38,062 nucleotides of DNA, from positions 1-38,062 of the forward strand of contig NZ_WIQU01000051.1 in NCBI RefSeq assembly GCF_015732285.1. The letters run 5' to 3'. Positions 9,851 through 38,062 of this stretch are shown here, piece after piece. Position numbers and translations under genes: made by a program. Origin of the DNA: Pectinatus frisingensis (GTDB lineage Bacteria; Bacillota; Negativicutes; Selenomonadales; Selenomonadaceae). A model generated the notes under the pieces. The model was not told the DNA's origin. It was given only the letters and a program-made list of their open reading frames with translations, and made no database searches. Within the stretch, counting starts at the first letter, position 1. Every line of letters starts with the position of its first letter.

Positions 9851-10600
9851 ATGAAAACATTTTCGTTCATCAACAAAAAGGGCGGCGTTGGCAAAACGAC
9901 GATTACAGTTAATATGGCGTATGCCATAGCCGAAAGTTGTGATTTAAGAGTTCTGGTTATAGACAATGACGATCAGGGCAATGATTCGCAGTTCTTTGAT
10001 GCAGATCCAGAAAAATCATTGGCAGATATTCTTTTAGGCAAGGCGGATATCCGGGAAGTTATCCAACATACACGATATCCGAACATTGACATTGTTGCCA
10101 GTGGTGCCGTTTTACTGGATGCCAATGTGGCCGTCATAAAAGATGAAGAGATTGTGCAGCAGACCATTTTAAAAGAATCCTTGCCAAAGGTTGCTGAAAA
10201 TTATGATGTGTGCCTTATCGACAATCCTCCGACAATTAACGCTTCTGTGATCAATGCCTTGGTAGCTAGTGATGAAGTCATCATTGTGACGACACCGGAT
10301 ATTTATGGCATTCGCGGCGTTTCGCAGATGGTGGAGTATATTAAGGCGATTAAAGAATATAATCCTGTCTTGCGGTTTCGTGGTTGCCTTCTCAATAAAT
10401 TTTCCTCTACTCCGCATGGATTCCGTTGCATCGAGCTATTAAAGAGTCAGTTTCCCTTATTTAGAACAAGAATTCGTTATACAAAAGATAAACTGGAAGC
10501 GTCGGCAGAAAAAAGAAAATCCATTTTCGAGTATTCGCCCAATTGTGGTTTTGCACGGGATCTTGTGCGGTTTTTAAAAGAACTTTTAGCGGGGGAATAA
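9851..10600 (+). CDS. parA: ParA family partition ATPase
   Basis: This 249-residue ParA/MinD-type ATPase drives segregation of a plasmid or excised element together with ParB. It has a deviant Walker A motif KGGVGKTT (residues 10-17), Walker A' VLVIDNDDQGN (35-44) and Walker B VCLIDNPP (about 120-127). It lacks the long N-terminal HTH of P1-type ParA, so it is the short chromosomal/type Ib-like form. The asparagine in IDNDDQGN, where many ParAs have IDxDPQGN, is a small variation. A 6-bp inverted repeat (TCGCTT 9805-9810, AAGCGA 9829-9834) just ahead of the SD might be an operator. ParB follows after 4 bases. Confidence 0.93.
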   Translation: MKTFSFINKKGGVGKTTITVNMAYAIAESCDLRVLVIDNDDQGNDSQFFDADPEKSLADILLGKADIREVIQHTRYPNIDIVASGAVLLDANVAVIKDEEIVQQTILKESLPKVAENYDVCLIDNPPTINASVINALVASDEVIIVTTPDIYGIRGVSQMVEYIKAIKEYNPVLRFRGCLLNKFSSTPHGFRCIELLKSQFPLFRTRIRYTKDKLEASAEKRKSIFEYSPNCGFARDLVRFLKELLAGE

Positions 10601-13297: not shown

Positions 13298-14386
13298 ATG
13301 CCATTACCGGAACATGTGCAAGAGCAGCGGAATGCTCTTGTGGAAAAAGTAATAAAAGACATTGAGGCAGGGAAGCCGTTCTTTTGGGACTCTGAGCACT
13401 TTGGCAGGCCAGCGCATAATATGGCACTTGGTGCGTCCTATCGTGGGCTCAATCGTATGCGCCTGATGATTGCAGCTGAGGACAAAGGTTACACCGATAG
13501 TCGCTGGTGTACCTATAAGCAGGCGCAGGACAAAGGCTGGCAGGTCAAAAAAGGCGAAAAAGGGACACACATCGAATTTTGGAGCAAATTAATTACGGTC
13601 AAAGAAGTAAATCAAGAAACGGGTGAAGAAGAGAAAAAATTGAAAGACTTAGATTGTCCCATAGTTAAATATTACACGGTATTCAATGCACAGCAAATGG
13701 AAGGCGTTCCTCCAGAACATTCCTTGACCATTGACGAAAATGAGAAGAATAAATACATGGAAAATATGCTAAAAAATAGTGAAGCAAAAATCTTCTTTGA
13801 TCAGAGTAATCGGAATTTTTACAGCCCTACTACAGATGAGATCCATGTATTGCCGCGAGAAAAATTTAAAACCATGGATGGCTTTTATGCGACTTGCGCG
13901 CATGAAATTGCCCATAGTACCGGACATTCTACCCGGATGAATCGGGATATGTTCAATTTTGAAAAAAGTGAATATGCCAAGGAAGAACTACGGGCCGAGC
14001 TTGCCTCTACGTTTTTGCAGCAGCAATACGGAATAAAATTTGATGAAAAGCATTATGAGAATCATGCCGCATATCTGCAGTCTTGGGCTAAAGTTTTAAA
14101 AGATGATCCAAACGAATTATACAGGGCTGCTTCTAAGGCACAAGAAATGGCAGACTATATTGAGCATAATATGCTGTTAAAAGGCCTTGAACAAGCAAAG
14201 CAAAAAGCGCTGGAAAGTGCCAATGAAGTACCGATTCTTAGTAAAGAGGTCAAGGAACCGGCAAAAATATCGCCATTTCAGGAGATTGCGAATCGGGCCA
14301 TGGAGAAGAAAAAGCAGCAACAGAGGAAACAAAAATTACAGGTTTCGATAAAGGATAAACCAAAACAGGCAGAATTGGCACGATGA
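13298..14386 (+). CDS. ArdC-type antirestriction protein (ssDNA-binding domain + zincin metallopeptidase)
   Basis: This 362-residue protein has an ArdC N-terminal ssDNA-binding domain (HVQEQRNALVEKVIKDIEAG, NMALGASYRGLNRMRLMIAA, DSRWCTYKQAQDKGWQVKKGEKGT) and a zincin-like 'MPTase polyvalent' domain. The latter has the metal-binding HEIAH at 202-206 (ATCAHEIAHSTGHSTRM) and a downstream YAKEELRAELAS supplying the third ligand. ArdC proteins protect incoming conjugative DNA against restriction in the recipient. It lies in the leading operon with ParA/ParB, as expected of a conjugative element. The last 60 residues are a lysine/glutamine-rich tail. Confidence 0.88.
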   Translation: MPLPEHVQEQRNALVEKVIKDIEAGKPFFWDSEHFGRPAHNMALGASYRGLNRMRLMIAAEDKGYTDSRWCTYKQAQDKGWQVKKGEKGTHIEFWSKLITVKEVNQETGEEEKKLKDLDCPIVKYYTVFNAQQMEGVPPEHSLTIDENEKNKYMENMLKNSEAKIFFDQSNRNFYSPTTDEIHVLPREKFKTMDGFYATCAHEIAHSTGHSTRMNRDMFNFEKSEYAKEELRAELASTFLQQQYGIKFDEKHYENHAAYLQSWAKVLKDDPNELYRAASKAQEMADYIEHNMLLKGLEQAKQKALESANEVPILSKEVKEPAKISPFQEIANRAMEKKKQQQRKQKLQVSIKDKPKQAELAR

Positions 14387-16588: not shown

Positions 16589-16803
16589 TAATATATTTGA
16601 AATATCTTCTATTTAGATGATTTAGTTAATAAATGGCCAGACTCTCAGTACAAACAAAATCTTCAGAAGTGAGTTGCGATATCGGAGGAAAGCGTAGTTT
16701 TTACAAGATGATTAGTTATATAAGGTAATCTAAGCGAAAGTAATTAGCTTATTTTACTAGGTTTCAAAATGGTATGTATATTAATATTTTTTGGAGAGTT
16801 TAT

Positions 16804-17967
16804 ATGAATATAAACGAACTGCAAGAGGAAATTGAAAATTTGATTTTGAGTAAACGAGAAGATGATTATTGGGACTTTAAGGAAAAGCATCACGCCAATA
16901 CTGCTGATTTATTGCACGATATTATCTGTATGGCCAATAATCGCGCTGATAGAGACGCTTATATTATATATGGAGTTGTAGATAAAACTGGTAATATTGT
17001 TGGTGTAGAGGCTGATCCAGGGCGTAGAAATCAGCAAGAGATTATAAATCAGTTAAAAAGCAAGAATTTTGTTTCAGGGATTCGTCCGCGTATTGAATTA
17101 AGGACCCTCAATATCCAAGATCATGAGATTGATGTACTTATTGTTAAAAATACGTCAGATACGCCTTATTATTTAATAGAAGATTATAAGGATCAAGGGC
17201 GGATTGTACGAGCTTATCATATATATACAAGAGTCTGTGATACGAATACCGATATTGATAAAAGTGCGGACATTGACCACACAGAGTATTTATGGAAAAA
17301 GAGGTTTGGATTAACTACAGTTCCGTTGGAACGTTTCATAAAAAAACTGAAAAATAAAGAGGAATGGATTAAAAAGGAGAACTTTCACTATAGCAAATAT
17401 AATCCTGAGTATACTATTGTATTTGATGATGAAGAAGATGATGAACGAGGAAAACCTGAATTTTATGCATATGCAATGTGTAATTCTTCGGTTAATTATG
17501 GGTATGTGAATATCAAATATTTTGAAACGCGTTTATATGGATGTCGAATTGTCACCTTAGATAGCGGACGTTTTATGACGACTGTACCAGAATGGGGATT
17601 TCTAAAATTTGATAAATATAAAATGGATATTACTTACTCTTTCAAATATTATCTGAAAAGTGGAATTTCCTATATGCTCCATAAATTCTTGCTCAGAGAA
17701 GATAGTGAAGAAGCGAAGTATGCGTGCGAGCGATTTTATGAGGTTATCCTTATATTTAAGGATGAGAGAGAAAAAGATGATTTTGTCTCATTTATTTACG
17801 GGAAGAAAGAAGAGATGATAAAAAGAGTCGAACAGATTCCTGAGGAGTATGGCTGGATTGAGGCAGAGAATAAACGATCGCGGGACGAGATTATTAAAAG
17901 GTTAAAAGCAGGTCGTGTACTCAATGAAATGTTGGTAGAATTTCGTAACGATTATTCTCATGTGTAA
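16804..17967 (+). CDS. AlbA_2 (Schlafen-like) domain protein
   Basis: The first 130 residues of this 387-residue protein form an AlbA_2 domain: DDYWDFKEKHHANTADLLHDIICMANNRADRDAYIIYGVVDKTGNIVGVE, then a short linker and IELRTLNIQDHEIDVLIVKNT. AlbA_2/Schlafen domains bind or cleave nucleic acids, and such genes recur in defence islands. The remaining 250 residues are unrecognised, with an acidic stretch (FDDEEDDERG). The ATG at 16804 (GGAGAG 5 bases upstream) is chosen over one at 16774. The large STAND gene starts only 44 bases downstream, so the pair is likely one operon. Confidence 0.75.
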   Translation: MNINELQEEIENLILSKREDDYWDFKEKHHANTADLLHDIICMANNRADRDAYIIYGVVDKTGNIVGVEADPGRRNQQEIINQLKSKNFVSGIRPRIELRTLNIQDHEIDVLIVKNTSDTPYYLIEDYKDQGRIVRAYHIYTRVCDTNTDIDKSADIDHTEYLWKKRFGLTTVPLERFIKKLKNKEEWIKKENFHYSKYNPEYTIVFDDEEDDERGKPEFYAYAMCNSSVNYGYVNIKYFETRLYGCRIVTLDSGRFMTTVPEWGFLKFDKYKMDITYSFKYYLKSGISYMLHKFLLREDSEEAKYACERFYEVILIFKDEREKDDFVSFIYGKKEEMIKRVEQIPEEYGWIEAENKRSRDEIIKRLKAGRVLNEMLVEFRNDYSHV

Positions 17968-18011
17968 TAAAATTGACGAGATTTTTGAGCTTTGGGGGCA
18001 GAAGTTTAGTT

Positions 18012-21000
18012 ATGTCTAATAGAGATGATTTCACACAAAAAACGAAAGATGAACTTGCAAAGCGCGTTGCCTGGCTATGTTCAAATCCTAATTGCCGACG
18101 AGCCACAATCGGTGCAAAGTCCGGCAGCGAAGGTGCCATTATTACTGGGATAGCGGCACATATTACTGCTGCTCCCGGTGGGTCCAGATATGATCCCGCA
18201 CTTAGTCCAGATCAGAGAAAAAATATTACTAATGGTATTTGGCTCTGTAGCAATTGCTCAATTCTCATAGATCGTGATGAAGACGCATTTTCCGTTTCAC
18301 GGCTGAATGATTGGAAACGTACAGCTGAGAGCCAATCTTTTGCTGCAATTGCAGGGTCAAGCATTGATGCTCAGCTCCTAAGAAAAATTTCTGTCGAGAT
18401 GGATGAAGATGACCTTAAAATAATTCGAAGCCTTTCATTGCCGCAGGATGATGATCTTGAGGAAGTGACAATGCGACTACGTAACGCCGCTAGAATAGAT
18501 ATAGAGCATTTCAAGAACGAGCAGAGTTGGCCAAAACACGTAGTTCCTATTAATATGACTTCGAAGGACACTAACGGCGTCCATGTATTTAGCCTGGCAG
18601 GCATCGCGGATGCAATGGAATTTGTCAATGAAATTTCCATTGTTGCCGCACCGGGGCTTGGGAAAACGACAACAATGATACAGCTTGCAGATACTATTCT
18701 CGCATCAGAGGGCGGGATAGCTGTTGTTATTCCGCTCGCAGAATGGTCAATGCAATCAGACACCTTTTTTAAAATGCTTATCCAGAGGAATGCTTTTCGT
18801 GATTTCCGTGAACAGCACTTTATGCTGCTTGCATGTCATGGTCGGCTACAGCTTATGTTGGATGGTTGGAATGAACTTGATTATGAAGCGAAGCTTCGTG
18901 TTAATCGCCAAATAAAAACCCTTCAGCGTGAATTTCCTCGTATCAGGATAGCTATCAGTACAAGACCCCAGGTAGGGGATTTGTCGATTGCGGGACCCAA
19001 ACTTGAACTTAACACACTTTCTGATGAACAACAGAAGGAGATTGCTCATGTATTGCTTGGAGACAATGGAATAGCATTATTAGAGCAAGCATGGCAAACG
19101 GATGGGGTGAGGGAACTGGTAGCAATCCCCCTTTATCTGAATTGGTTGCTTGCCTATGCTACTTCTGGGAAAATGCCGACTACTAAAGAAGAAGTACTAA
19201 ACCGTTTTGTCGCAGAATACGAGAGGGCGCAGGAACGGGCTTTAATTTTAAGGCAAAAGCTTTTTTGCTGTCATCAGGTATTTCTTGCAGGATTGGCTTC
19301 AAAGGCCACCAGTATTTCCAATACCGTAATTCGGGAGGATATGGCACGTGCCGTAATTAGTCAGATTGAAAATGATTTAGTAACAGGAGGGCAGATAACG
19401 GGTCGACCGGAACCACAGGATGTTCTTGATACGCTAATAAATCAGCATTTGTTGGTTAGGTCAGGTGGGAATGCCGGAATTTCCTTCCAACACCAGCAAA
19501 TCCAAGAGTGGTATGCTTCTTTTGCTGTCGAGAAATTGATGCTAGCAGCAGAAGCAGGTGATGTGGAAGCAGTAAAACAACTGAGCTTCAATATTCTTAA
19601 TTTGCACTTATGGGAGGAGCCAATTCTTTTTGCGTGTGAACGATTATCTAATCGTGATCAAAATGGTGTTAAAGCGGTTGCTACCGCAATTTTGCAGTCT
19701 ATTTCGGTCGATCCAATGCTTGCTGCAGAAATGATTTATAGATCATCGACGGTCGTCTGGGATATCGTTCAAGATGAGGTTAAGGCTTTCGCTTTACGTT
19801 GGCATAAACCAGGTAAAGTGGATCGGGCAATTGGTTTTATGATCACTACTGGATGTCCAGAATTCGCGGAACAGATTTGGCCATTAGTCACCCATCCTGA
19901 TGATCAGATACATTTAAAAGCCCTTCGCGCCGCTCGGCAATTTCGACCTAGCGTCTTGGGCGCTAGTATCCAAGAACGACTGGCCATTGTACCTGAAGAA
20001 GTGCGTGAAAGTGTCCTGGCAGAAATCGCTATGGAGAGTGGCCTTGATGGAATAAATTTTGTTACAAATCTTGCCAAGTTAGAAACGAGTACCAAAGTAC
20101 AATTTGCAGTGATAGAGGCTCTTTTGTTTCGGCGTGCAGAGCGGTTTGCCATTGCGATTATCAAAGTCGCGAGGGAAGACATTTGGCAGATGCTCGCCTG
20201 TAGCAATTATGCGAATGAAATTACTGACGCCGAAATTGCGGGACGATGGAAAAAAGAACACCTAACATATATTACAGAAGAAACCAATGTATTAAAAAAA
20301 CTGAGTTTGCTTGTTAATGATGGTGAAATCAGCCCTTATATTGGAAAGCAAGTTGAGGATATCATAGTATCGGATGAATTCCCAATAGATGATAATAACG
20401 CCTATTGGACATTAGTAAAGGCAAAGGAACAATATCTTCAAGAGGTCAAAAGGGGAATTCTGCGTCGTATTGAGACTGGAAGTAAAACCCCTTACGGATC
20501 AATTGACTTATTAAGGGACGCAGGAGTAGTCGAAGAAGGGGCCATTATTGACTTAATTGTTAATACTTCCCAAGAAAATCGTTTTGCAGACGAGGCGACT
20601 GTGATAGCTGGGCCAAAGACGGTAAGTATTCTCATCGAAAAGCTGATTAAACTTGACAAAAAAATTCAGGAAATGGATGGGCCGATCAAAGAGAGCACGA
20701 GAAGTGAATATTGGCGTTTAATTGACCGTATTAGTCACAGTCAGCCTGTATCAATCCTGACGACACTACAGTCGTATAGTAACACCCATGAGCCGCATGT
20801 TATTGCACTTTTAGCAGATATTCTGGCACGACATGCTCAAAAGAACGAAGCAGAATTATTAAATACGGATGAAGGACTTCAAGAATTTCTTGTTAAGACC
20901 GTTAATCAATGGGTTGAGGTGCTGAAATCGCTACCTGCAAGCCGTGAACAACTTTCGTCAGTTGTTCGAGTAATATCATTTTTTCCAAAGCCAGAGTTCT

Positions 21001-22418
21001 TTGAAGGGCTACAAAGTCTTCTGCTGGAAGACCTTTCACAATGGAAACAGGCAAAGCATGGATTTGCTGCAAACCCAAGGAATCGACATGCTTTTCAAGA
21101 GGCTACTATTTGCTATACTAACATTTACAAAGATGCTTTTTCAGCTATTAGCGGAGATAAGGTCATTCAATTAATGCTTCGATACCTATCCGATCTTGAC
21201 TTTGGTATTGAGGCAGCATATGTGCTTAAAATTATCTGGGATAAACAACAGGACGATTATGAGAGGAAAGTTTTTAAACCATGGCCCGATTTCTCAGAAG
21301 TAGCTGCCCGTCATCTACGACGCCAGCAAGAGGATGTAATCTATGAATCACTATCACCTTTTGCTGAAGCGATTTTTTCTGCTATACATAATATCAACTC
21401 ATCTAATTGCGGCGATAAAGAATACCGACACGTTTTAAAACTTGCCAAGATAGCATTAAGTATGCCTCATGGTGATAGGGGTTCTATTGCTTTTGAACTT
21501 TTGCATGTACCGTTGCCGCTATCAGAAAAGCTTGAACTTTTAAGATCGCTCGTTATTGCAGGATACAAAATAGAAGCCGATATAGTTATCCAAGGGCTGA
21601 AAGATTTATTAGAAGAGGCTAAGAAGAAACCATGGTTGCTGGATGAGCATCATAATCAGCTTGTAGAATGGCTGCAACTATTACCTTTTTCCGATCAGCC
21701 AGAGGCCCTGGATGAAGCTTTAGATTTGGGGAAAGAACATCTTAAAGAGCCTTACAGGTTCCAAGAATTATTAGCTTCTCTTGCGTATGCCCCGAATACG
21801 CGGGCGGAGTTATCTTTGTTCAAATTGGCGGAGGGTGATCCACGATTTTATAAAGATTACTATTGGCTAAATGCAGTAGTTTTACGTGATACGGATTCGT
21901 CAGTCACAAGGATTCTTGACTTAGTCTGTAGCGGTAAGGTGGCCGGAAACCAGCAGGGACTGCTTTCAGGAAGTATACCAGATTTAATCGCTCGCCATCC
22001 TGATGTATATCACAATTTATTACAGCGTTATGGGCAACTCTCTGCTACCGCCAAGTCTCGAATAAAGCCCTTAATAGCAGAGATTGCAGATAAAGAGGGG
22101 TTATTGGTATTAGTACAGAGCTATGGTGAGGAAGGCCTTAAATTTGATTGGGTGTTGGAAGGAATGATAAATGAAATAGCTGTGGGTAAAAAAACATTGC
22201 CGCACGTCTATGAATACTATAGCGTCGATGTGTCGGCTCTGCGAAAAAAACTCTTTGCAATGGTTAAGAAAACCAATATTGCGGCTAATGTTGCAGTATC
22301 GTGCTTGGAACTAATTGACGAATTGCGCGATGAATATGGAATTGTTGACACTGAGCCGCGTCATCCGGATATTGAATCTGGGCGTCCTTGGCCCCTTATG
22401 ATGCAGGGTGTTAGCTGA
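18012..22418 (+). CDS. HNH-like zinc domain + STAND/NACHT-type NTPase, 1468 residues
   Basis: The N-terminal 110 residues have an HNH-like zinc fold: CSNPNC (Cys23, Cys28), GIAAHITAA (His50), NITNGIWLCSNC (Cys79, Cys82) and LIDRDED. The last catalytic histidine of the HNH motif is not evident (SNCSILID). A STAND P-loop NTPase follows: Walker A APGLGKTT (213-220), Walker B LMLDGWNEL (281-289) and the RIAISTRPQ sensor strand (about 312-320). About 900 helical residues of HEAT-like character make up the rest, a plausible ligand-sensing part. This order (effector, NTPase, sensor) is that of bacterial NLR-like anti-phage proteins. The ATG at 18012 is preferred to a TTG at 17973. Confidence 0.8.
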   Translation: MSNRDDFTQKTKDELAKRVAWLCSNPNCRRATIGAKSGSEGAIITGIAAHITAAPGGSRYDPALSPDQRKNITNGIWLCSNCSILIDRDEDAFSVSRLNDWKRTAESQSFAAIAGSSIDAQLLRKISVEMDEDDLKIIRSLSLPQDDDLEEVTMRLRNAARIDIEHFKNEQSWPKHVVPINMTSKDTNGVHVFSLAGIADAMEFVNEISIVAAPGLGKTTTMIQLADTILASEGGIAVVIPLAEWSMQSDTFFKMLIQRNAFRDFREQHFMLLACHGRLQLMLDGWNELDYEAKLRVNRQIKTLQREFPRIRIAISTRPQVGDLSIAGPKLELNTLSDEQQKEIAHVLLGDNGIALLEQAWQTDGVRELVAIPLYLNWLLAYATSGKMPTTKEEVLNRFVAEYERAQERALILRQKLFCCHQVFLAGLASKATSISNTVIREDMARAVISQIENDLVTGGQITGRPEPQDVLDTLINQHLLVRSGGNAGISFQHQQIQEWYASFAVEKLMLAAEAGDVEAVKQLSFNILNLHLWEEPILFACERLSNRDQNGVKAVATAILQSISVDPMLAAEMIYRSSTVVWDIVQDEVKAFALRWHKPGKVDRAIGFMITTGCPEFAEQIWPLVTHPDDQIHLKALRAARQFRPSVLGASIQERLAIVPEEVRESVLAEIAMESGLDGINFVTNLAKLETSTKVQFAVIEALLFRRAERFAIAIIKVAREDIWQMLACSNYANEITDAEIAGRWKKEHLTYITEETNVLKKLSLLVNDGEISPYIGKQVEDIIVSDEFPIDDNNAYWTLVKAKEQYLQEVKRGILRRIETGSKTPYGSIDLLRDAGVVEEGAIIDLIVNTSQENRFADEATVIAGPKTVSILIEKLIKLDKKIQEMDGPIKESTRSEYWRLIDRISHSQPVSILTTLQSYSNTHEPHVIALLADILARHAQKNEAELLNTDEGLQEFLVKTVNQWVEVLKSLPASREQLSSVVRVISFFPKPEFFEGLQSLLLEDLSQWKQAKHGFAANPRNRHAFQEATICYTNIYKDAFSAISGDKVIQLMLRYLSDLDFGIEAAYVLKIIWDKQQDDYERKVFKPWPDFSEVAARHLRRQQEDVIYESLSPFAEAIFSAIHNINSSNCGDKEYRHVLKLAKIALSMPHGDRGSIAFELLHVPLPLSEKLELLRSLVIAGYKIEADIVIQGLKDLLEEAKKKPWLLDEHHNQLVEWLQLLPFSDQPEALDEALDLGKEHLKEPYRFQELLASLAYAPNTRAELSLFKLAEGDPRFYKDYYWLNAVVLRDTDSSVTRILDLVCSGKVAGNQQGLLSGSIPDLIARHPDVYHNLLQRYGQLSATAKSRIKPLIAEIADKEGLLVLVQSYGEEGLKFDWVLEGMINEIAVGKKTLPHVYEYYSVDVSALRKKLFAMVKKTNIAANVAVSCLELIDELRDEYGIVDTEPRHPDIESGRPWPLMMQGVS

Positions 22419-26110: not shown

Positions 26111-26122
26111 ATGGTTTATTTA
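26068..26122 (+). terminator. 16-bp stem hairpin followed by T-rich tract
   Basis: CCATATTGGGATTGCC (26068-26083) and GGTAATCTCAATATGG (26099-26114) pair over 16 bp with two G-T wobbles, followed by TTTATTTATTTAA. It looks like an intrinsic terminator, or the end of a small inserted element. It overlaps the apparent start codon of the truncated YhcG frame, which argues that this start is not native. Confidence 0.45.
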
Positions 26123-26944
26123 TTTAACATTAAATTTTCCTCCTTGGCGAAGGGCTATTCTGTTCGCAATTTAAAATATATGGCAAAGCTTGCAACTGTA
26201 TTTCCAGATGCTGTAATTGTGCAAGAGGTACTTGCACAATTGCCATGGTATCAAAATATTGCTCTTTTGGACAAAATAAAAGATCGAGACATTCATATAT
26301 GGTATGCGAGAAAAGCCATTGAAAATGGCTGGTCGCGTAATGTTTTGGTGCATCAAATCGAGAGTAAGCTTTATGAACGGCAGGTGATTGCTGATAAGGT
26401 TTCGAATTTCGATCATCGTCTACTGGCTCTGCAGAGCGAGCTAGCACAGCAGACAATGAAAGATCCCTATATATTTGACTTTATAACCTTTAAGGAAGAT
26501 ATGATTGAAAGAGATGTTAAGGAAGCGCTGGTCAAAAATGTTACCCGGCTGCTTTTAGAACTGGGAAAAGGTTCTGCATTTTTGGGAAACCAATATCACC
26601 TTAATGTTGGTAGAGACGACTTTTACATAGACCTGCTTTTTTACAATCTGAACCTTCGTTGTTATGTTGTCATTGAATTGAAGACAGGCGCATTTAAACC
26701 GGAATATGCGGGCCAATTAAATTTTTATCTGTCAGCAGTTGATGGGATGCTTAAAAAAGAAATAGATAATCATTCCATTGGCCTTTTGCTTTGTAAGAGC
26801 AAAAATGATTTGGTTGCTGAATATTCTCTAAAGGATATGAGCAAGCCAATCGGTGTGAGTGAATATAGAGTTACTAGTGATCTTCCAGAGAAATTAAAGG
26901 AACAACTACCATCTATTGAGGATATCCAGAGTCGAATGAAATAA
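26111..26944 (+). pseudogene. YhcG/DUF1016-family PD-(D/E)XK nuclease, 5'-truncated
   Basis: From residue about 16 the frame matches the YhcG (DUF1016) family: GYSVRNLKYMAKLATVFPD, VLAQLPWYQNIALLDK, WYARKAIENGWSRNVLVHQIES, then the C-terminal nuclease with FYIDLLFYNLNLRCYVVIELKTG (Asp174, Glu189, Lys191) and PEYAGQLNFYLSAVDG. Family members usually carry some 50-60 more residues at the N-terminus, ahead of the G-x-S-x-RNLxxM motif. Here these are replaced by MVYLFNIKFSSLAK, read from a hairpin with no SD. The nuclease core is intact but translation is unlikely. YhcG proteins often accompany restriction or retron-like defence genes. Confidence 0.8.
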
Positions 26945-27060: not shown

Positions 27061-27099
27061 ATTCAACAGGGGTCCATTATGGACCCCTGTTGAATTTTA
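27061..27099. repeat. Palindromic repeat copy 3, 17-bp perfect arms
   Basis: ATTCAACAGGGGTCCAT (27061-27077) and ATGGACCCCTGTTGAAT (27079-27095) are perfect inverted copies around one T, followed by TTTAAC. The core GGGGTCCATWATGGAC is shared with 12912 and 14388. It lies in the 249-base gap after the YhcG remnant. The rest of that gap has no supported gene. Confidence 0.75.
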
Positions 27100-27193
27100 A
27101 CATAAACAAAAATATAATAAAGAGAGATACATATGTAGTGATATAGATTATATTTTTGTTGGCCCATATTGGATGTCTTGTATGTTAAGATAG

Positions 27194-28438
27194 GTGGCCA
27201 TTAAGAAAGGGACGAGTTTTTTGTTGGAAATCAAGCAATTTGGAGATTGGAAAACAAGAAATACGATAAAAGACATGATGGGAGTAAAGGCATATTCAAA
27301 AGATAATGAATGGTATTTCGCTATTGATGAAAATATTATTGATTTTTCTGCAATGAAAGCTTTACTCCCTTCGGCAGAGTATCAGAAACTTTGTTTTCTT
27401 CAAGCCAAGAAAATAGAATTTGCAGAGTTGTTCAAGGATATTTCAAAAATCACTGAATTTCCCAAAAGAAAATATGTTGTGGTTGGAGATGTAGATTCAA
27501 TATATACTCTTTCTGATAAGCTGAGTATGTGTATTCTTATTGATGAACACAATACAAAAAGAACATTAGCTGTTATATTGAAACAGCCATTAGAGACAGA
27601 TGATTTGAAAGAAAAGCGTATTAGAGTTATTGGGGAATTAGGAATGTATTCTCCTTATGCAAGATTTCAATTAGAAAATATTTCTGAACTTGAAATTATT
27701 GGACCATGTTCTAGACTTGTTGAGTATGAGGACTATACTCAACAATATAAATCTTATTTTAAAGAAGCTGAGCAACAAAAAGAGTTTTCCTTTGAGTTCG
27801 TAAAGCTTGGTGTTATAAGTAACAGAAAATCTCAAGGGTATCAAGATTTTTTGAAGCACTTGAAAAAATCAACGATTGCACAAGAAAACATTATTTTGGA
27901 AGATATTAAAATGACACATGAAAATATCATCGCTAGCATAAAAAAGCTGAATGATGAAAACGAATGCCAAGGTATTTGTATTATTCGTGGTGGGGGCAAT
28001 CCAGAAGAATTGATTGAATTTAGTAAACCTGCTTTGCTAGATACAATAATAGCGTCAAAGCTTCCGATTATTACAGGAGTAGGCCATGTAATGGATCTTG
28101 CTTTATGCGACTATATTGCAGATTACAATGCCGGAACTCCTACTGGTGTGGCCGAGTATTTTAATTATTTAGTAGGGAAGAAAGCTGCTAATGAAAAAGC
28201 AAAAACTAAAGATACTGCTATTCAGTTTATCCGTGAAAAGAAAAAACATGCAGATGAAGAGCTCAAAGATTTAGAAATAAAGTATCAAAAGTTAGCAGAA
28301 GAGAATGCATTTTTGGAATATGAAAATAGTATACTTCAACAAGAAAATAACCAGCTTCAAACAAAATTAAATGAGGCCCACCAGAATCAGAAAAAAGTTA
28401 GTGCTTTTGGATTGATTGGAAAACTTTTTAGATTTTAA
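27194..28438 (+). CDS. Exonuclease VII large-subunit-like (XseA-like) protein with C-terminal coil
   Basis: This 414-residue relative of XseA has an OB-fold N-terminal region (about 93-170: YVVVGDVDSIYTLSDKL..., IRVIGELGMYSPYARFQLENI) and the catalytic-core signature: LGVISNRKSQGYQDFLKHL, ICIIRGGGNPEELIEFSKP (262-279) and IITGVGHVMDLALCDYIADYNAGTPTGVAEYF (292-323). The usual GHExD appears as GHVMD (His298, Asp301). The XseB-binding helices are replaced by a leucine-zipper-like coil (about 352-400). No xseB gene is adjacent. It may act as a specialised nuclease in defence. The GTG at 27194 lacks an SD; a TTG at 27221 with AAAGGGA 8 bases upstream is a good alternative. Confidence 0.75.
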   Translation: MAIKKGTSFLLEIKQFGDWKTRNTIKDMMGVKAYSKDNEWYFAIDENIIDFSAMKALLPSAEYQKLCFLQAKKIEFAELFKDISKITEFPKRKYVVVGDVDSIYTLSDKLSMCILIDEHNTKRTLAVILKQPLETDDLKEKRIRVIGELGMYSPYARFQLENISELEIIGPCSRLVEYEDYTQQYKSYFKEAEQQKEFSFEFVKLGVISNRKSQGYQDFLKHLKKSTIAQENIILEDIKMTHENIIASIKKLNDENECQGICIIRGGGNPEELIEFSKPALLDTIIASKLPIITGVGHVMDLALCDYIADYNAGTPTGVAEYFNYLVGKKAANEKAKTKDTAIQFIREKKKHADEELKDLEIKYQKLAEENAFLEYENSILQQENNQLQTKLNEAHQNQKKVSAFGLIGKLFRF

Positions 28439-28858: not shown

Positions 28859-31800
28859 ATGAGTAATCCAACGGCTGGGATAGGTGATCCTTATTGGTAT
28901 GAGTGGTCTATCGGCCTATTATATATTGTGGATATGTTGAATCCAGATAACGGGATAAAATCGGTTACATTACAGTCAACTAGTGTACAAGGATTAGACG
29001 ATGTTGTAATTAATTATTCAAATGGTGTTACTAGATGTATTCAAATTAAACATTCGCGTGTTGGAGATACGCTTACTTTTGGTGATCTTGTTTCAAAAAC
29101 GGACGAAAAAGAACCGTTACTAAAAAGTCTAGCAAACGCTTGGAAAGAAGCAAAAGAAAAGTGGCAACAATGTGAGCCCATTTTATTTACCAATAGACTG
29201 GCTGGCACCCGCTCCTCAACAGTAAAATCTGAAGATGATGAAAAACATAAAAGACCAGCTTTGTCTACATTTTGGGAACATCTTCAACAAGAGATTGAAC
29301 AAAAGGAAGGAATGGGTTTAATATCATTTCCTCCAGATTGGCAGCAAGCCTGGGGAGAATGGTATGAACAACTGTCAGTATTAGATGACGATAAAACAAA
29401 AGTAGAGTTTCTAAAATCATTGTCAATTGAGACGGGGCAACCGGATTTAACTGAAGTTACAGATAGGCTACTGGCTAAAATTAGCGAAACATTCGGAATA
29501 GACCAGAGGCAATCTCGGGGTATTTTAGCGTATCTTGATACTGCTTTGCGGGAATGGGCTACAACCAAAAGAGGAGTGCGGGAAGCTGTTACTCCCGAAG
29601 TGGTATATCAAAAAATAAGTCTTTCAGCGCAACATTCAGTTGGCGATCATGCCTTGCCACCACCTGCGCCATTTTTCCCAAGCAGGATGGATTTTTTAGC
29701 TCAACTTTCACAGGAACTTCTTGAAGGTCCGAATTCAATTGTCTTTTTGACAGGAAAGCCTGGAGTTGGAAAAACAAGTGTAGTAAGCGCGTTAGCGAAT
29801 CGACGGGAACCTGTTATAGATTTACGTTATCATGCTTATAAACCAATTACGCCTTCTACAAAGATTTTGCCTATTGATGTGGGGGAGACGACAAAGATAG
29901 AAGTATTGTGGGGAGATCTTCTTACTCAATTAAGAACAATATTTAAAGGCAGTCTTGCAAAATATAAAGTGCCAATTCGTAACGACTTTTTAACTTCTGA
30001 GCAGTTGCGAGAAGAAGTAATAAGATTATGCTCTATTTTAACCAGTGAGCGGCAACGACCGACTATTATTGCAATTGATGGTATTGATCATGCCGCACGG
30101 GCTGGTATTGATAAATATACATTCCTTACATCACTTATTCCTCCGGAGAATATTCCGGACGGGATACGGTTTTTAATTGTAGGACAACCACCAGAGGCTT
30201 ATCCTAAATATCCTATCTGGCTGCGAAGCAATAATCCTAAAATCACAAAATTTGAAATCAAAGGCATTACTAGACCAGATATTGAAGTACTGTTGACAGA
30301 AATAAACTCGACAATAGCTGAAGATGAATTTGATGCCGCAGTTAGAATGATTGATTATATTGCGGAAGGTAACACATTATCTGCTGTTTTTGCTGTAAAT
30401 GAAGCAAAAGATTGTGCTAGTGTGGAAGAACTTCAAGTTAGACTGAGTGAAAGAAAGTTAAGCCATGGAATAACTACTTATTATGATACAATCTGGCAGG
30501 CAGCCTTAGCGAAAATAGAAACCCGATTTCCATTTATAAGTTATCGACTAGCTGGATGTCTTTCTCTTTATGGAGAGCGGCTTACAGGGAAAGCATTAAA
30601 CGGTATTTTTAATGACTATAATTTGCCCGCATCAGATTGGGCAAATCTATTAAGAGCAATTCGTCCGCTGGTGCAGGAAAAACAGGGCGAATTTTATGTT
30701 ACTCACAATGATGTCAGAGTACATCTTTTAAAACAGGTTCAGGCTGAACCTGAGCGCCTTAGAGAAATCGCTGCGGCTATCGCAAAGTACTACATAGCGG
30801 AAAATGATAAAACACAATTACGGCACACCAATCTTTTCGAGCTTCTTGAGTTAGCGGAAATGGTTGAACAGCAAGCACAAATTTTTACAACAGAATTTGT
30901 TATGGAAGCGGCTGCTCTCGGAAGACCGAGAAACGAATTAGTGGGCCAATGCCAGAAAGCTCTTAACGCTGTTCTTACTACAAATAATTGGGATTTACTA
31001 CATACGCTTACCTGTGCATTAACTAGTTTAAACCAACTCTTTAAAACGGTGGATATTACAGAAGGAGACTTTGAATTTGTATCGGACATTCCTCCCATCT
31101 TGTTGTCGGAAGGAACGGTTCCGCGGATTGAGATGTGGGATTTTGAAATGGTGGAAGGGGCATTTAATGATATTTGGCGATTGATTGAGTGTCGGGAGTT
31201 ACACCGAGCAAAGGGGATTATATATCGATGGTTTAACGGTATATCGCCTGTCAAATTAGGCGATATACTTTTACCTCAGACAATGGAAGAAGGCGGCGAT
31301 CATGAAAATATAGATAATAGGACAGTTGCATTATTTAAGTTATGGGGCCGTATTAGTCAGCACACCGGATTTAGCTGGACCATTAAACAAAAGGACATTG
31401 AACGAGAGAATTTAAGTGAATTTGAAAAACAAGTAGTAGCGCATTTCTTTAGCGGTTACTTAGATGAGGGAGCCCGTTTAGGGGGCGCAATGAGATGGAT
31501 CAGGACTTTGAGAAAAACGATTATCTATTTTCAGCATGATCTTGAAAAGATAATGCATCTCTTTGCAAAACAAAGACGTTGGTGTGAAATCGCAATTACT
31601 TTGAAAGTGTTAAGTGATCGGCGGGAGAATTGGGATCTTTCTTTTAAAGTTAATGCTGCTACTTGGGCACTGTTTATTAACCGAGCTAAACTTAATAAAA
31701 TTTGGGTGGATCCAATAATCGCAAATGGTTTTACGGTATTTGATGGTTATTCTAACCGTTACACTGCAGAACATGGTTATTTAGTTGCGGCAGTAAGTTT

Positions 31801-34800
31801 TGTTTTAGGATGGACGCAGCCGCAACGCGAAAGTGCTGGCATCAGCCAAGAGGGGGTCACTTCTTATTTTAGCCAAAGTAGAGATAAACGGTCTCGGGAG
31901 CATTTGGCTGTGCTATTGAATGCGACTGCAATGACTGGACGATGGTTACGCAGCCTAATAACTAGAGGGCCTGTTTTTGCTGCCAATGTAGTTACCGCTA
32001 ACCAACTAGTCATCATTTTAACGGCGCTACTTGCTCGTCGATCACCGAATGAAAGCATATGGGACAGCAAACAGATTACGGCGCTGATATTTGAGATGAT
32101 AATAGAGATATCTGGAAAAGTTGGAGGCCCGCATGCATATGAGGTGTTTAAATTTGTTAAGTGCTCTATTTCCAGTTATCCAGTTGATTTTAGGCTCAAG
32201 CTATTCTGGTCTTATCTAGAAGATCGAGGGGAGTATGACCTGCTTGAGCAGTGGATAAATCATTGGCTTGGTCCAACAGGTGCAGTTTGGCATGAAGATA
32301 TTAGTGACCGTTATAGCATAATCAACACTTTTGTTGAGGTCGCAAGTAATCCGAGATGGCAACCGTATGTAAATGAAGCCAATGAGAAGATGAGATGGAG
32401 TTTTATAAGTTACAGCAATCATAAAGAGTATATTCTTTATGATTTGTTGGAGTGGTATGAACAGTTAGCGAAGGTTAGGCCAGATGTTTGGGAAAATCAG
32501 GGTGCTAAGCTGCTTGCAATATCTCAAGTAGTTTCTCAAATTGGCGATAATCGAGCTTCCGAATATATTGAAGCTGCTGTGGTATCCTCGGCCGCAAAAT
32601 GTGGGGTTAATTCCCTGTGGAGAATAGTTGTAGCCGAAGGTAAGGATAGAGCGTGGCTAGAGAATCCGAGCATTATTGCTGATGGTATTATCAGTTTGTT
32701 GGAAGATGGTAGAGTATGTGAGAAAGATTTGCTTAGCTTTTGGTCTTTAGGGATTGGTTGTTTTAGCTGGCAACAAGAATATGACCGGTGTTATCTCAAG
32801 GATTTACGAACAGCAATTCAGCTTGCGGCTGAGCGATTGGATTTTAATATTGAAAAAAGAATAGATCAGTTGGGAAAATGCGACTTCTTTGATAAAGATC
32901 AGTATGAACATTACCGCCTACCTGGACGATGGTTCAGGAGGGGAGAGGTGGGAAGTAGTGACGAAGAATTACCCAAACTATTTCAAGCTCTTGAAGCAAT
33001 TCCATTAGCAGAAGCAATAAGTTACTTATATAGGAGAAAACAAAGTAAAGAAAGCTATGGTGGCCATATTTGGCATGGCATTGCTCATTGTGCGCAACGA
33101 CTAAAAACAGAGAAACCGGAAAATTATGCAATGCTACTGAAACAATTATTTGATTTGCTTAAATCGCGCGAAGATATTTATCCCTGGGGAAGATATGATA
33201 GTGCAGACGTTGCTTATAAAGCGCTAATTCCAATGCTTGATGAGCAACAACGGTGGAGTATTGTTCAGGACGTGGTTAACCGCATTACTGATGAACCCGA
33301 TTCTGCTATTTGGCTAGACGCTACCACACAAAATTTAAATCAGCTTATTTTTGAAAGAGCAAAGTTGGTTGGAATAGAAGCGTGGCTTAAAGGAGTAGAT
33401 AATCTTCTCAATATGCATGAGCGTTGGATTACTGGCAATGGTTTCCTACCGGAGGGGGTACGTATTGAGGTTCCGAGCAGTTCGGCAGAAGGAATACCGC
33501 AAACATGGGCACAGCTCGCAGTACGTTGTGCAGTTGGGCGGATGGTATCTAATTTAGGCTCTTGGACTGAAGCAGCGCTAAGAGGCTTATGGGCATTGGC
33601 GCAAGTTTCACCCAATGATTTAGGCTACCTATTGGATATTTGGGATGATTTTGATAATCGGCAGAAGGAATGGGTGCTAGTATTAGTAGAAAGAATCGTG
33701 ACAATATCAGAAGAAACATATGAGATATTTCGACCTATTGTAGAGGAATGTTATAACGGATATGATTTGCAATTAAAACTGCAGGCTTGGGTTATTTTGC
33801 AAAGACGCGAGATGGTAAACTATAAACCATGTCCTGAATGGCTGCTTCCTAAACATCCTGAACATGAAAAGATCATGCAATTATCGTTAATTGGTGAAAC
33901 CGGTTTGCCTAGAATACCTAGTCAGCAGCACGGTGATATGCAGCTAATTCGTAGTTTCCAGACCGTCACCAGTATTCTGCGACGGTTAGAAGCCGCTACT
34001 TATGATGACTTGACAGATGTGGAAAAGCGATTCACAGCTTATATAAAAAAGTATGGCATTGGAAATAGGGTGAAAACTGAGAACGTATCTGGTAATTACG
34101 GTGATATGATATTAACTTTTTCACCAGAACTAGAAATATTAATGAAAATACTTTATTGCCAAATGTATAAACAACGGTGGTCCGATATACCCTTAGTTCG
34201 CATTGCACAAGCGTTGCTTCATAGTGATGAGCCATTTATTTTATTCAATATTCCTCGCAAGGTAAACAGTACACTTTCATGGCCAGCCGATGAAGAACTT
34301 GAAAAGATACTGTTAGATTCAGGTAAGGCGCGCGAGTGCTTCCTTGAGATTTTAAATTGTGGGCTGGATGACAACACAATGCTACTGGGAGGAGAGCTAT
34401 TTTTATATAGCCGACAAAATGATGTTCGGGTAACTTATAATATCGGCTTAACTGATAAAGCGACTCAACCACCAAAAAAAAGGCGTTCGACGTTTAGTGG
34501 AAGATCATTTGCCTTTTATTATCCTGAGCGCTTTGATCCTTATGAAAGCGATGATGAGGAGTTGCCTACTGAGGTTACAGTACAGTCTGGTGGAATTTGC
34601 TATTTTATATACCAGCAAATATTGAGTTATCCATCAATTGATTTAAGTGCCCTATTTGATTGGCATCCGGATATTAAAAATCCCACTATTTTTATTCAAA
34701 ATGAGGAGGTTGTCGCCTGGTATGAGTGCCTGCATGGACCTATGAGACAGATACTTCAGGATCGATTTTATCGGCAACCTATTTTGCATCGGTGGGTATG

Positions 34801-34894
34801 CTCTCATGATAAGTTTGAGCAATCGATAAAAGACCAGGGAATATTGAAGTATCCTCAATTAGATATTGAAGTAAATCCAATAAATATTGACTAA
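28859..34894 (+). CDS. Avs-like protein: PD-(D/E)XK (DUF4297/Cap4-like) nuclease + STAND NTPase, 2011 residues
   Basis: The N-terminus reads as a Cap4/DUF4297-type nuclease: GDPYWYEWSIGLLYIVDML (Glu15), VQGLDDVVINY (Asp47/48) and TRCIQIKHS (Gln62-x-Lys64). A STAND ATPase follows: Walker A TGKPGVGKTS (298-307), Walker B TIIAIDGIDHAA (402-413) and RFLIVGQPPE (437-446). Over 1400 C-terminal residues form a helical sensor-like region with no enzymatic motif. Avs proteins of this layout bind conserved phage proteins, oligomerise and cut dsDNA; the Cap4-STAND order resembles Avs2. The exact subfamily needs a search. AAGGAGG precedes the ATG. Confidence 0.8.
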   Translation: MSNPTAGIGDPYWYEWSIGLLYIVDMLNPDNGIKSVTLQSTSVQGLDDVVINYSNGVTRCIQIKHSRVGDTLTFGDLVSKTDEKEPLLKSLANAWKEAKEKWQQCEPILFTNRLAGTRSSTVKSEDDEKHKRPALSTFWEHLQQEIEQKEGMGLISFPPDWQQAWGEWYEQLSVLDDDKTKVEFLKSLSIETGQPDLTEVTDRLLAKISETFGIDQRQSRGILAYLDTALREWATTKRGVREAVTPEVVYQKISLSAQHSVGDHALPPPAPFFPSRMDFLAQLSQELLEGPNSIVFLTGKPGVGKTSVVSALANRREPVIDLRYHAYKPITPSTKILPIDVGETTKIEVLWGDLLTQLRTIFKGSLAKYKVPIRNDFLTSEQLREEVIRLCSILTSERQRPTIIAIDGIDHAARAGIDKYTFLTSLIPPENIPDGIRFLIVGQPPEAYPKYPIWLRSNNPKITKFEIKGITRPDIEVLLTEINSTIAEDEFDAAVRMIDYIAEGNTLSAVFAVNEAKDCASVEELQVRLSERKLSHGITTYYDTIWQAALAKIETRFPFISYRLAGCLSLYGERLTGKALNGIFNDYNLPASDWANLLRAIRPLVQEKQGEFYVTHNDVRVHLLKQVQAEPERLREIAAAIAKYYIAENDKTQLRHTNLFELLELAEMVEQQAQIFTTEFVMEAAALGRPRNELVGQCQKALNAVLTTNNWDLLHTLTCALTSLNQLFKTVDITEGDFEFVSDIPPILLSEGTVPRIEMWDFEMVEGAFNDIWRLIECRELHRAKGIIYRWFNGISPVKLGDILLPQTMEEGGDHENIDNRTVALFKLWGRISQHTGFSWTIKQKDIERENLSEFEKQVVAHFFSGYLDEGARLGGAMRWIRTLRKTIIYFQHDLEKIMHLFAKQRRWCEIAITLKVLSDRRENWDLSFKVNAATWALFINRAKLNKIWVDPIIANGFTVFDGYSNRYTAEHGYLVAAVSFVLGWTQPQRESAGISQEGVTSYFSQSRDKRSREHLAVLLNATAMTGRWLRSLITRGPVFAANVVTANQLVIILTALLARRSPNESIWDSKQITALIFEMIIEISGKVGGPHAYEVFKFVKCSISSYPVDFRLKLFWSYLEDRGEYDLLEQWINHWLGPTGAVWHEDISDRYSIINTFVEVASNPRWQPYVNEANEKMRWSFISYSNHKEYILYDLLEWYEQLAKVRPDVWENQGAKLLAISQVVSQIGDNRASEYIEAAVVSSAAKCGVNSLWRIVVAEGKDRAWLENPSIIADGIISLLEDGRVCEKDLLSFWSLGIGCFSWQQEYDRCYLKDLRTAIQLAAERLDFNIEKRIDQLGKCDFFDKDQYEHYRLPGRWFRRGEVGSSDEELPKLFQALEAIPLAEAISYLYRRKQSKESYGGHIWHGIAHCAQRLKTEKPENYAMLLKQLFDLLKSREDIYPWGRYDSADVAYKALIPMLDEQQRWSIVQDVVNRITDEPDSAIWLDATTQNLNQLIFERAKLVGIEAWLKGVDNLLNMHERWITGNGFLPEGVRIEVPSSSAEGIPQTWAQLAVRCAVGRMVSNLGSWTEAALRGLWALAQVSPNDLGYLLDIWDDFDNRQKEWVLVLVERIVTISEETYEIFRPIVEECYNGYDLQLKLQAWVILQRREMVNYKPCPEWLLPKHPEHEKIMQLSLIGETGLPRIPSQQHGDMQLIRSFQTVTSILRRLEAATYDDLTDVEKRFTAYIKKYGIGNRVKTENVSGNYGDMILTFSPELEILMKILYCQMYKQRWSDIPLVRIAQALLHSDEPFILFNIPRKVNSTLSWPADEELEKILLDSGKARECFLEILNCGLDDNTMLLGGELFLYSRQNDVRVTYNIGLTDKATQPPKKRRSTFSGRSFAFYYPERFDPYESDDEELPTEVTVQSGGICYFIYQQILSYPSIDLSALFDWHPDIKNPTIFIQNEEVVAWYECLHGPMRQILQDRFYRQPILHRWVCSHDKFEQSIKDQGILKYPQLDIEVNPINID

Positions 34895-36594: not shown

Positions 36595-38062
36595 TTATAA
36601 ACGCCATTCTTTATACAGTTTATCTTCAGCAATTTGTACCTTGTCGTTAACTTCAGATTCATTATTCCAATGGGCATCTAAATGAATGTTTTTTTCTTTT
36701 GAAATAAGTTTTTCCACAAGGGTAGAAATATGAGATGAAATTGTTTGCTTTTGGTGACTGTGGGCAGTCTGTAAAATAGGGTGAGAATGTCTTGTTAAAT
36801 TCTTTTGTAAAGCTGCATTCTTTTTTCTCGATTCATGGGGCGTATAGAGTCGTACAATTTCAGATGTAAAATCATTTTTGATTGGAATAGAAGCACTTTG
36901 GATTTTCCACTTAGTATTGTTGTTCGTCATCACCTGAAGCTCATATTTTGGCACGGTGCCGCGCTTTATATTATCGCCAAGTTTTACAGCAGTCACGGTA
37001 TAGGTAGTATCTATCTTCTTGGCTGTATCGGTAAGAGCAGGAAGTTGCTCTAAAAGGGCATAGGAATCACCCTTATAAACCAAGATTTTGAGCTTAGAAA
37101 TCGGCTGGATACCGTCAATTTTGCATTTGCGGTTTAGTGTTGCCGGGAGTTTGTCGGTGAAAAGGATCGTATCCATATTTTCTGCACTAAGTTTTTGTGC
37201 AGCTTCACTGTATTTAACAACCTGTTTTTTTAGTGAAAGATATTCGGCATAGAGATGGTTACTCTGGCGTTGGTTTTCGGCATTTTTCTGCTGTAAAGTT
37301 TTAAAAATATTATCGATCTTCTCTTTGGCCTCACCAGCAATGGCGCGGCGATAATTATTCAGCTGCTTACCAAGAAGATTTCGTTCTTCGGTAAGCAGCT
37401 TTATTTTTTTACTGCATTCTGCCAACTCATGCGTTTTATCAGGAACGCCATAAAGGAAAGTAGCCATTTCTTTTATACGTTGCAGTTCTTTGGCAGATTT
37501 TGCGTAGGCTTTGCGTGTTTTATAATACTGATGATGGAATGCCTTATCCTCTGCAGCAAGCCTTAGTTGGTGATCATTCAGGATCTGTGGCTTCAAGGAT
37601 TTATAGGCAGCTAATTTATCGTCAGCCAGATTCCGGTATGTAGTGGCTGTTTCTTCAAGATAAGAATAGACATCGCCAACGCTGATGATAAGCGGTTCTT
37701 CCATGATTTCAACTGCCTCAAATTTTGCTCTTTCTATGTCTTGTTCTTTTTGCAGCCGCAGTCGTTCCTGCTGTATTTGCCGGGCAACTTGACGGATCAC
37801 GACATCATTGGCAAAAACTAAGATATTTTGCTCTTTAGAAGAAAGAGCAGCGACATCTATTTCCTCACTAGTTTCCGGAAAATCTGATTCGTGATCGGCT
37901 TGCTCAATTCGATCCATAATTTTTTGCATGGCTGCCGGATTTCGATAAGCGCTGCCCAGGTGTGGGGCAGGGGTTCGGTTGAGAAGTTCAGCTTCGTCAT
38001 TTTTTCCGGATAAAACTAGTTCTTCATGCTGGGCATTTAGGGTCTTTTCACTGATACAAGTG
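36595..38062 (-). CDS. MobA/MobL-like relaxase, C-terminal part (5' end beyond window)
   Basis: The frame is open from the window edge to a stop at 36595, at least 488 codons; an internal ATG at 37929 is not the true start. The visible N-terminal part (TLNAQHEELVLSG, NRTPAPHLGSAYRNPAAM) resembles the segment after the relaxase domain in MOBQ-type MobA/MobL proteins. What follows is a long Lys/Glu-rich helical region (about 80-300) and a less charged tail. The catalytic tyrosine and histidine triad would be outside the window. The family call rests on that segment and on context (ArdC, ParA/ParB, replication gene). A fragment of its 3' end recurs at 28461-28722. Confidence 0.6.
   Translation of the reverse strand, partial: TCISEKTLNAQHEELVLSGKNDEAELLNRTPAPHLGSAYRNPAAMQKIMDRIEQADHESDFPETSEEIDVAALSSKEQNILVFANDVVIRQVARQIQQERLRLQKEQDIERAKFEAVEIMEEPLIISVGDVYSYLEETATTYRNLADDKLAAYKSLKPQILNDHQLRLAAEDKAFHHQYYKTRKAYAKSAKELQRIKEMATFLYGVPDKTHELAECSKKIKLLTEERNLLGKQLNNYRRAIAGEAKEKIDNIFKTLQQKNAENQRQSNHLYAEYLSLKKQVVKYSEAAQKLSAENMDTILFTDKLPATLNRKCKIDGIQPISKLKILVYKGDSYALLEQLPALTDTAKKIDTTYTVTAVKLGDNIKRGTVPKYELQVMTNNNTKWKIQSASIPIKNDFTSEIVRLYTPHESRKKNAALQKNLTRHSHPILQTAHSHQKQTISSHISTLVEKLISKEKNIHLDAHWNNESEVNDKVQIAEDKLYKEWRL

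Follow-up and report, generated by a model that had tools for sequence, protein, structure and literature searches.

The window, by which we mean the whole analysed stretch of 38,062 nucleotides from Pectinatus frisingensis, contains a gene related to xseA, the gene for the large subunit of exonuclease VII (ExoVII), in the midst of defence genes. Upstream of it, on the forward strand, lie the genes for ParA (9851..10600) and a ParB-like protein (10605..11825), with homologs of both in the same five other loci that carry an xseA-like gene, an ArdC-like antirestriction protein with ArdcN and MPTase-PolyVal domains (13298..14386), a Schlafen AlbA_2 protein (16774..17967), a protein that combines an N-terminus like that of the HNH effectors of SAVED systems with the NACHT C-terminal domain NCAB2 (17973..22418), and an N-terminally short PDDEXK nuclease of the YhcG/DUF1016 type (PDC-S02; 26111..26944). 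Downstream follow a 2011-aa Avs-like/LmuA-like NTPase defence protein (28859..34894, forward strand) and, on the reverse strand, what the contig end leaves of a MobA-like relaxase, namely its C-terminal part (36595..38061), which has no Pfam match of its own and was recognised by its homology to the MobA/MobL protein of locus L076 (24% identity, E 1e-28). A megablast search of the island against plasmids gave no match. The window further contains a transposase fragment at the contig start (1-717; DDE_Tnp_IS240 and InsA zinc ribbon), two adjoining genes of 552 and 439 aa without an above-cut-off family (22837-25811), the second of which weakly matches LmuB, and, between the xseA-like and Avs-like genes, a short open reading frame, MARKKKSYRIDSTY, with the look of a transposase start (28795-28839).

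The xseA-like gene, as first listed, is an open reading frame on the forward strand that starts with GTG and encodes 414 aa (27194..28438). An alternative TTG start at 27221, preceded in the sequence by AAAGGG, would give a protein of 405 aa and is probably the true start. From the N-terminus, the product comprises a segment without a Pfam match of its own that aligns, in degenerate form, with the DUF5710 domain of the family members of loci L021 and L031 (27224..27391, forward strand); an OB fold recognised in the AlphaFold model and by fold match (residues 88-172; 27455..27709, forward); a catalytic core delineated by alignment and model, with D218, RGGG from R265, H298 and D301 (27791..28177, forward); a long helix or coil at the place of the XseB-binding arm and C-terminal segment of XseA (28139..28396, forward); and a C-terminal basic-hydrophobic tail, QKKVSAFGLIGKLFRF, of MinD-like sequence pattern (28388..28435, forward). 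Between the YhcG gene and the xseA-like gene stands a perfect 15-bp inverted repeat followed by TTTT (27062..27094), which reads as terminator-like downstream of the YhcG gene and was not listed by the terminator scan. The promoter scan indicated a promoter-like site on the forward strand (TTGAAT-17-TATAAT, 10 of 12; 27090..27118), one of 16 such sites found against 14.1 expected, that is, no excess over chance.

The Pfam profile Exonuc_VII_L matches the window protein with an E-value of 1.2e-32, over profile positions 4-211 of 315 only. The PF02601 score of 114.1 bits, above the curated cut-off of 35.9, places the protein in the XseA superfamily, yet it scores 129.5 bits, below the equivalog cut-off of 180, against TIGR00237 (xseA, NCBIfam) and likewise departs from the canonical large subunit in its C-terminal third, in its grouping away from housekeeping XseA and in having no linked xseB; it is therefore a variant of XseA. 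The host genome encodes an ordinary XseA on contig C19, matched by both halves of the family profile, and the only PF02609 (xseB) match of the genome directly follows that gene. The window protein is thus an additional copy, with no xseB linked to it.

The AlphaFold model of the window protein (mean pLDDT 78, built with 15 sequences) consists of the OB fold, the catalytic domain and a single predicted helix that makes up the C-terminal part (residues 316-413). Among solved folds, chain B of the E. coli ExoVII structure (8txr_B) matches best, with a Z of 21.4 and an rmsd of 15.1 over 279 residues, model residues 73-369 being aligned to residues 10-308 of the chain. Because 8txr_B as modelled stops near residue 308, the absence of the C-terminal third is read from the profile and not from the fold match; Foldseek comparison with the longer 8txr chains A and C gave TM-scores of 0.31-0.34 over the whole model. 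The truncation of the profile match is a property of the family, as the match passes position 213 of 315 in none of the 10 Pfam-scanned members, and the number of residues after the TP motif is 69-97 in the 11 members with a MinD-like tail (hereafter tailed members) compared with 156 in the host XseA. The profile positions past 213 we take to be the XseB-binding arm and the end segment of XseA. The sequence-only reading, that the OB fold and the catalytic signature are kept while the XseB-binding part gave way to another structure, agrees well with these data: the motifs RGGGNPEEL, GVGHVMD and TPTGVAEYF are all present, and the predicted helix stands in the place of the XseB-binding arm.

Among the catalytic residues, D218, R265, GGG and H298 are invariant in all 12 aligned members, and D301 is kept in 11 of the 12, the exception being L068 with asparagine. 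These residues correspond to the catalytic residues of E. coli XseA, among which the importance of H238 is taken from the title of the structure entry 8txr (H238A). At the N-terminus, a DUF5710 domain is recognisable in L031 (1.3e-18) and L021 (4.5e-10). In L028, a separate DUF5710 gene lies directly after the xseA-like gene (L028:11088-11711).

In a profile search of 380 genomes of the class, family members were detected in 13 genomes belonging to 11 genera at an E-value of 1e-35 or better; we read the class as Negativicutes because four members come from an uncultured Selenomonadales bacterium, Megamonas, Selenomonas ruminantium and Centipeda periodontii. A broader profile returned the same 13 from the same genomes at 277 bits or more and everything else at 130 bits or less, four matches at 126-130 bits being set apart by score alone. 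Two of the 13 members (L025 and L068) fall outside the tailed clade. In a sample of the phylum, 66 of 398 genomes were matched, all but the window at 160.1 bits or less, and the 14 loci examined from this search yielded 12 new sequences with ordinary C-termini and two that were already in the set. A single-protein scan of genome contigs gave no relative of the window protein, and an alignment scan of named genomes gave 19 loci, of which four contain family members and 15, judged by the C-terminus, ordinary XseA (one of them, L032, cut by a contig end). Scans of viral sequences returned nothing in one case and, in the two others, L103, located at the edge of an IMG/VR contig and the sole match in the last scan. 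With a score of 123 bits, inside the range of ordinary XseA, and a very long branch, L103 can be regarded as a possible member only; its record of 39.6 kb, represented here by a 1.8-kb stretch, showed no integrase.

In a phylogenetic tree of 50 sequences, based on the OB and catalytic columns, the 11 tailed members including the window protein form one clade (support 97/94) and group with the two transmembrane members L025 and L068 (13 members, 96/97), whereas the host XseA pairs with that of a genus-mate (100/99). Forcing the window protein together with the host XseA and its genus-mate is rejected (p-AU 1.7e-14). This tree left out L103 and L107 (long branches), the partial L032 and seven near-duplicates. 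In a quick tree that included L103 and L107, the 14 family sequences are not one group: L025, L068 and L103 are placed apart, and L031 is found next to the remaining ten. The long branches call for caution here. For xseB, we built a small home-made model from ten xseB sequences, which was positive in 34 of 40 ordinary xseA loci not used in its construction. It detected no xseB in any of 14 loci, namely the window, the 12 other members and L103, among which L060 (3.3 kb) and L103 (1.8 kb) are short. Together with the gene context given below, these results support a distinct, XseB-less clade, sporadically distributed and carried by mobile elements, the outcome for which the sequence-only reading had suggested a tree of XseA homologues. 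The two outcomes named there as contrary, clustering with the housekeeping XseA of the host and an xseB directly linked in relatives, are rejected by the p-AU value and not seen in any of the 14 loci, respectively.

At the C-terminus of each of the 11 tailed members stands a short stretch of basic and hydrophobic residues that resembles the membrane-targeting sequence of MinD. Examples are L021 (KKGFFKRLFGF) and L065 (KKGFFSKLFG), the end of E. coli MinD being KKGFLKRLFGG; nine of the ten residues of KKGFFKRLFG in L021 are identical to E. coli MinD. A pattern derived from the family tails fits all 11 tailed members and one of 342 neighbouring ORFs, which by sequence is itself a MinD-family ATPase (the background consisted of ORFs of at least 150 aa, taken as ORFs only, with those containing RGGG excluded). 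Since the pattern was written after the tails had been seen and with MinD in mind, agreement with E. coli MinD does not test it independently. It also fits L103, looked at later (one case), and does not fit the host's own two MinD proteins. The hydrophobic moment of the tails is weakly raised (p = 0.03). In L025 and L068, a transmembrane-type helix is found at the C-terminus instead, with a best 19-residue hydropathy of 2.98 and 2.01, respectively; the highest value in the last 45 residues is 0.88 among 40 ordinary XseA sequences and 0.96 among the ordinary plasmid and phage copies. Neither the conserved MinD-like tail, nor the transmembrane tails of other members, nor the N-terminal relation to DUF5710 had been noticed in the sequence-only reading. 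The pattern of these C-termini suggests that the tail is a membrane tether.

The helix that carries the tail had been described as a leucine zipper. A helix or coil is indeed predicted, and its zipper periodicity is modest, being reached by 34 of 300 shuffled sequences. When the heptad pattern of each protein was compared with 300 shuffles, it was reached by no more than 16 of them in L028, L031, L060, L065, L066, L067 and L103, and the signal was absent in the tailed members L021, L030, L063 and L064. In view of these four, oligomerisation of the stalk cannot be called general.

Outside the clade, overlapping tblastn searches of plasmids yielded lists of 85, 102, 12, 126 and 3 records, from which 17 regions were examined. 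Transmembrane-type C-terminal helices were found in plasmid copies of Paenibacillus (L107), Sulfuricystis (L124) and Azospira (L125), the latter two, both from Betaproteobacteria, being 94% identical; a Rhodococcus copy (L128:1908-2897) shows, by eye, two hydrophobic stretches some distance before its end, which the 45-residue measure misses. No xseB was present in the examined stretches of L107, L124, L125 and L128 (4.4 kb for L128). Four haloarchaeal plasmid XseA proteins also have a transmembrane-type tail, with xseB kept next door (L049:4025-5260, L104:2366-3418, L105:2444-3496 and L106:2582-3685). Among nine examined plasmid copies with ordinary C-termini, xseB adjoins in eight; the Sphingomonas copy L132, of ordinary length and without an anchor or an xseB within 4.4 kb, indicates that xseB can be missing from the neighbourhood of a copy that has no anchor. 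A Microvirga copy (L129), an orphan according to the plasmid gene table, was rejected as such because the home-made model identified xseB at L129:3012-3233. GHxxN replaces GHxxD in L068, L107, L124 and L125, and such transmembrane copies may be altered or inactive. The phage collection gave 44 records, of which two were examined: one holds an ordinary xseA and the other a phage xseA followed by an xseB-like small gene. In the Paenibacillus plasmid (L107:2459-5873), the anchored XseA-like gene is followed by genes for a multi-transmembrane protein and then, by eye, a GHKL ATPase-like protein, possibly a multi-gene system.

In nine of the 11 tailed members, the xseA-like gene is immediately preceded, at a distance of 12 to about 86 bp and on the same strand, by a gene for a Cro/CI-type regulator (HTH_3); the exceptions are the window and L064. 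Eight of these nine loci also have a recombinase nearby: a tyrosine recombinase in L021, L031, L060, L063 and L065, a serine recombinase in L030 and, 3.7 kb away, in L028. The recombinase of L066 is broken, and the contig of L067, 14.5 kb long, showed none. The defence-island location proposed from the window sequence holds for the window, with its YhcG, Schlafen, HNH-NACHT and Avs-like genes, but is not typical of the family, which usually occupies a regulator-xseA-recombinase module. The wider surroundings of two of the five loci with ParA and ParB homologs (G560 and G500) include T4SS coupling proteins and, in G500, a MobA/MobL relaxase, to which the fragment at the end of the window's contig is homologous; some of the element genes are tens of kilobases from the xseA-like gene. 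From this gene content, we read the carriers as ICE-like elements. Two features of these loci deserve mention in their own right. Adjoining the integrase of L065 is an ORF with the repeated peptide LTLTRVVFE that has the look of a CRISPR array (L065:7453-7920), and the G560 locus (L072:14028-19016) contains repeated tail-collar-like fragments next to a tyrosine recombinase and type IV pilus-like genes, an arrangement that, by eye, we take to resemble a PilV shufflon.

Retention of the gene is illustrated by L060 and L066, which are 95% identical at the DNA level over a block that begins where the regulator gene ends, spans the xseA-like gene and runs into the integrase. The regulators of the two loci are 49% identical and the xseA-like proteins 96%; the integrase of L066 is broken and its xseA-like gene intact. 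The dN/dS ratio of the xseA-like pair is 0.12, indicating purifying selection. The shared block behind differing regulators has the appearance of an exchange of immunity regulators. L064 and the window, in turn, retain the xseA-like gene with neither an adjoining regulator nor an adjoining integrase. Although the sample is small, retention in L066, L064 and the window favours a function that is useful apart from the integration module.

Comparison with known systems helps to frame that function. The window protein resembles XseA (PF02601, TIGR00237, 8txr) in its OB fold, its catalytic motifs and the fold match, and differs from it by the absent last third of the profile, the added tail and N-terminal segment and the lack of a linked xseB. 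Its position beside a regulator and an integrase in most relatives recalls the superinfection-exclusion genes that prophages keep next to the repressor, although the carrier here is ICE-like and the product a putative nuclease. The likeness to MinD is confined to the C-terminal basic-hydrophobic stretch, of nearly identical letters in L021; in the xseA-like proteins this tail sits on a nuclease with no ATP-driven dimer switch, and the tails of the host MinD proteins look different. TubY of plasmid pBc10987 is likewise a mobile-element protein with a coiled coil that ends in an amphipathic tail which is reported to bind the membrane when oligomeric (PMC7762940), but TubY is a DNA-binding regulator and not a nuclease. 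A further comparison is SNIPE, reported to be a membrane-bound nuclease that cuts phage DNA at entry, during injection, and to have homologs with many kinds of anchors (PMC13190303). The window protein shares with it the combination of a nuclease with a predicted membrane-targeting segment, and the window copy lies among defence genes, whereas neither the GIY-YIG nuclease nor the DUF4041 domain of SNIPE was listed for it in a Pfam scan at E 0.1.

As the best explanation, held tentatively and somewhat short of an even chance, we propose that the xseA-like protein is a membrane-tethered, XseB-independent nuclease of the exonuclease VII type, carried as cargo by ICE-like elements of Selenomonadaceae and relatives and attacking DNA at its entry. 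In this view, the OB fold and the catalytic core would reside in the cytoplasm atop the helical stalk, which the MinD-like C-terminal helix would fix to the inner membrane; oligomerisation of the stalk, where present, might strengthen the grip. The enzyme would degrade the single-stranded ends of DNA crossing the membrane, be it the strand of a rival conjugative element, transforming DNA or phage DNA, so that location rather than sequence would discriminate foreign from own DNA. At the usual locus the gene would probably be co-transcribed with the Cro/CI-type regulator of the element, and in the window it would be cargo among defence genes. The gene context suggests a role in entry exclusion or defence, and such a role at the membrane is favoured by the SNIPE precedent together with the report that, in E. 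coli, DNA brought into the cell has its ends degraded by ExoVII (PMC3434165). As XseA is reported to require XseB for DNA binding (PMC11077951), an XseB-less family would need another way to bind DNA.

The strongest rival, which we consider rather unlikely, is a nuclease internal to the ICE that cuts back or removes the single-stranded intermediates arising when the element itself excises, replicates, transfers or integrates, close to the membrane that houses the conjugation machine. The placement of the gene between or beside the regulator and the recombinase in most loci would be natural for such an enzyme, as would the DUF5710 N-termini of L021 and L031 and the adjoining DUF5710 gene of L028. 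It is harder to reconcile with the persistence of the gene apart from regulator and integrase in L064 and the window, or next to a broken integrase in L066 with the L060/L066 pair under purifying selection. Moreover, close relatives do not share a type of recombinase (L030 has a serine and L063 a tyrosine recombinase, with xseA-like proteins 68% identical), which argues that there is no fixed recombinase partner. The pairing with the regulator could alternatively mark a toxin or abortive-infection module, in which harmful free XseA activity is held in check by the regulator until infection. Overexpression of XseA is reported to be toxic (PMC11077951), and the regulator is directly upstream in nine of the 11 loci; nevertheless, we regard this as improbable, since the divergence of the L060 and L066 regulators (49% identity) beside nearly identical xseA-like proteins (96%) points, in this one case, to the absence of strict pairing, and no such regulator adjoins the gene in the window or L064.

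Two further alternatives concern the protein itself. That the tail serves for docking or DNA binding and the enzyme is cytosolic appears quite unlikely, even if the lysine-rich tail of TubY reportedly binds DNA besides the membrane (PMC7762940), so that a MinD-like tail need not mean membrane only, and even if the hydrophobic moment is weak and the host MinD tails lie outside the pattern. The transmembrane-type segments of L025 and L068, and of distant plasmid copies with no xseB next to them, as well as the identity of nine in ten residues between the L021 tail and E. coli MinD, speak for an anchor. An ordinary spare XseA that borrows the host XseB for repair is very improbable: the host does have xseB and the catalytic core is kept, but the profile positions past 213 are missing in all 10 scanned members, the tree separates the window protein from housekeeping XseA, and xseB adjoins eight of the nine examined plasmid copies with ordinary C-termini (not L132).

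The proposal of a membrane-tethered nuclease may be extended to the copies outside the clade. It is possible, if doubtful, that elements of several phyla have repeatedly turned XseA into an anchored, XseB-free membrane guard against incoming DNA. The anchor would be the MinD-like tail in the copies on Selenomonadaceae ICE-like elements, and a transmembrane segment both in the remaining members of the class and on Paenibacillus, betaproteobacterial and Rhodococcus plasmids; this doubtful reading would also take in the haloarchaeal plasmid copies, which are transmembrane-tailed with xseB kept. Our search of the openly licensed literature found nothing on membrane-anchored or ICE-borne exonuclease VII. 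If the proposal is true, a housekeeping repair nuclease would have been recast as a membrane guard, its partner-binding arm swapped for an anchor, and one more nuclease family would join the defences in which place distinguishes foreign DNA from the cell's own. The XseB-less family would then also provide a ready test of whether exonuclease VII activity needs XseB.
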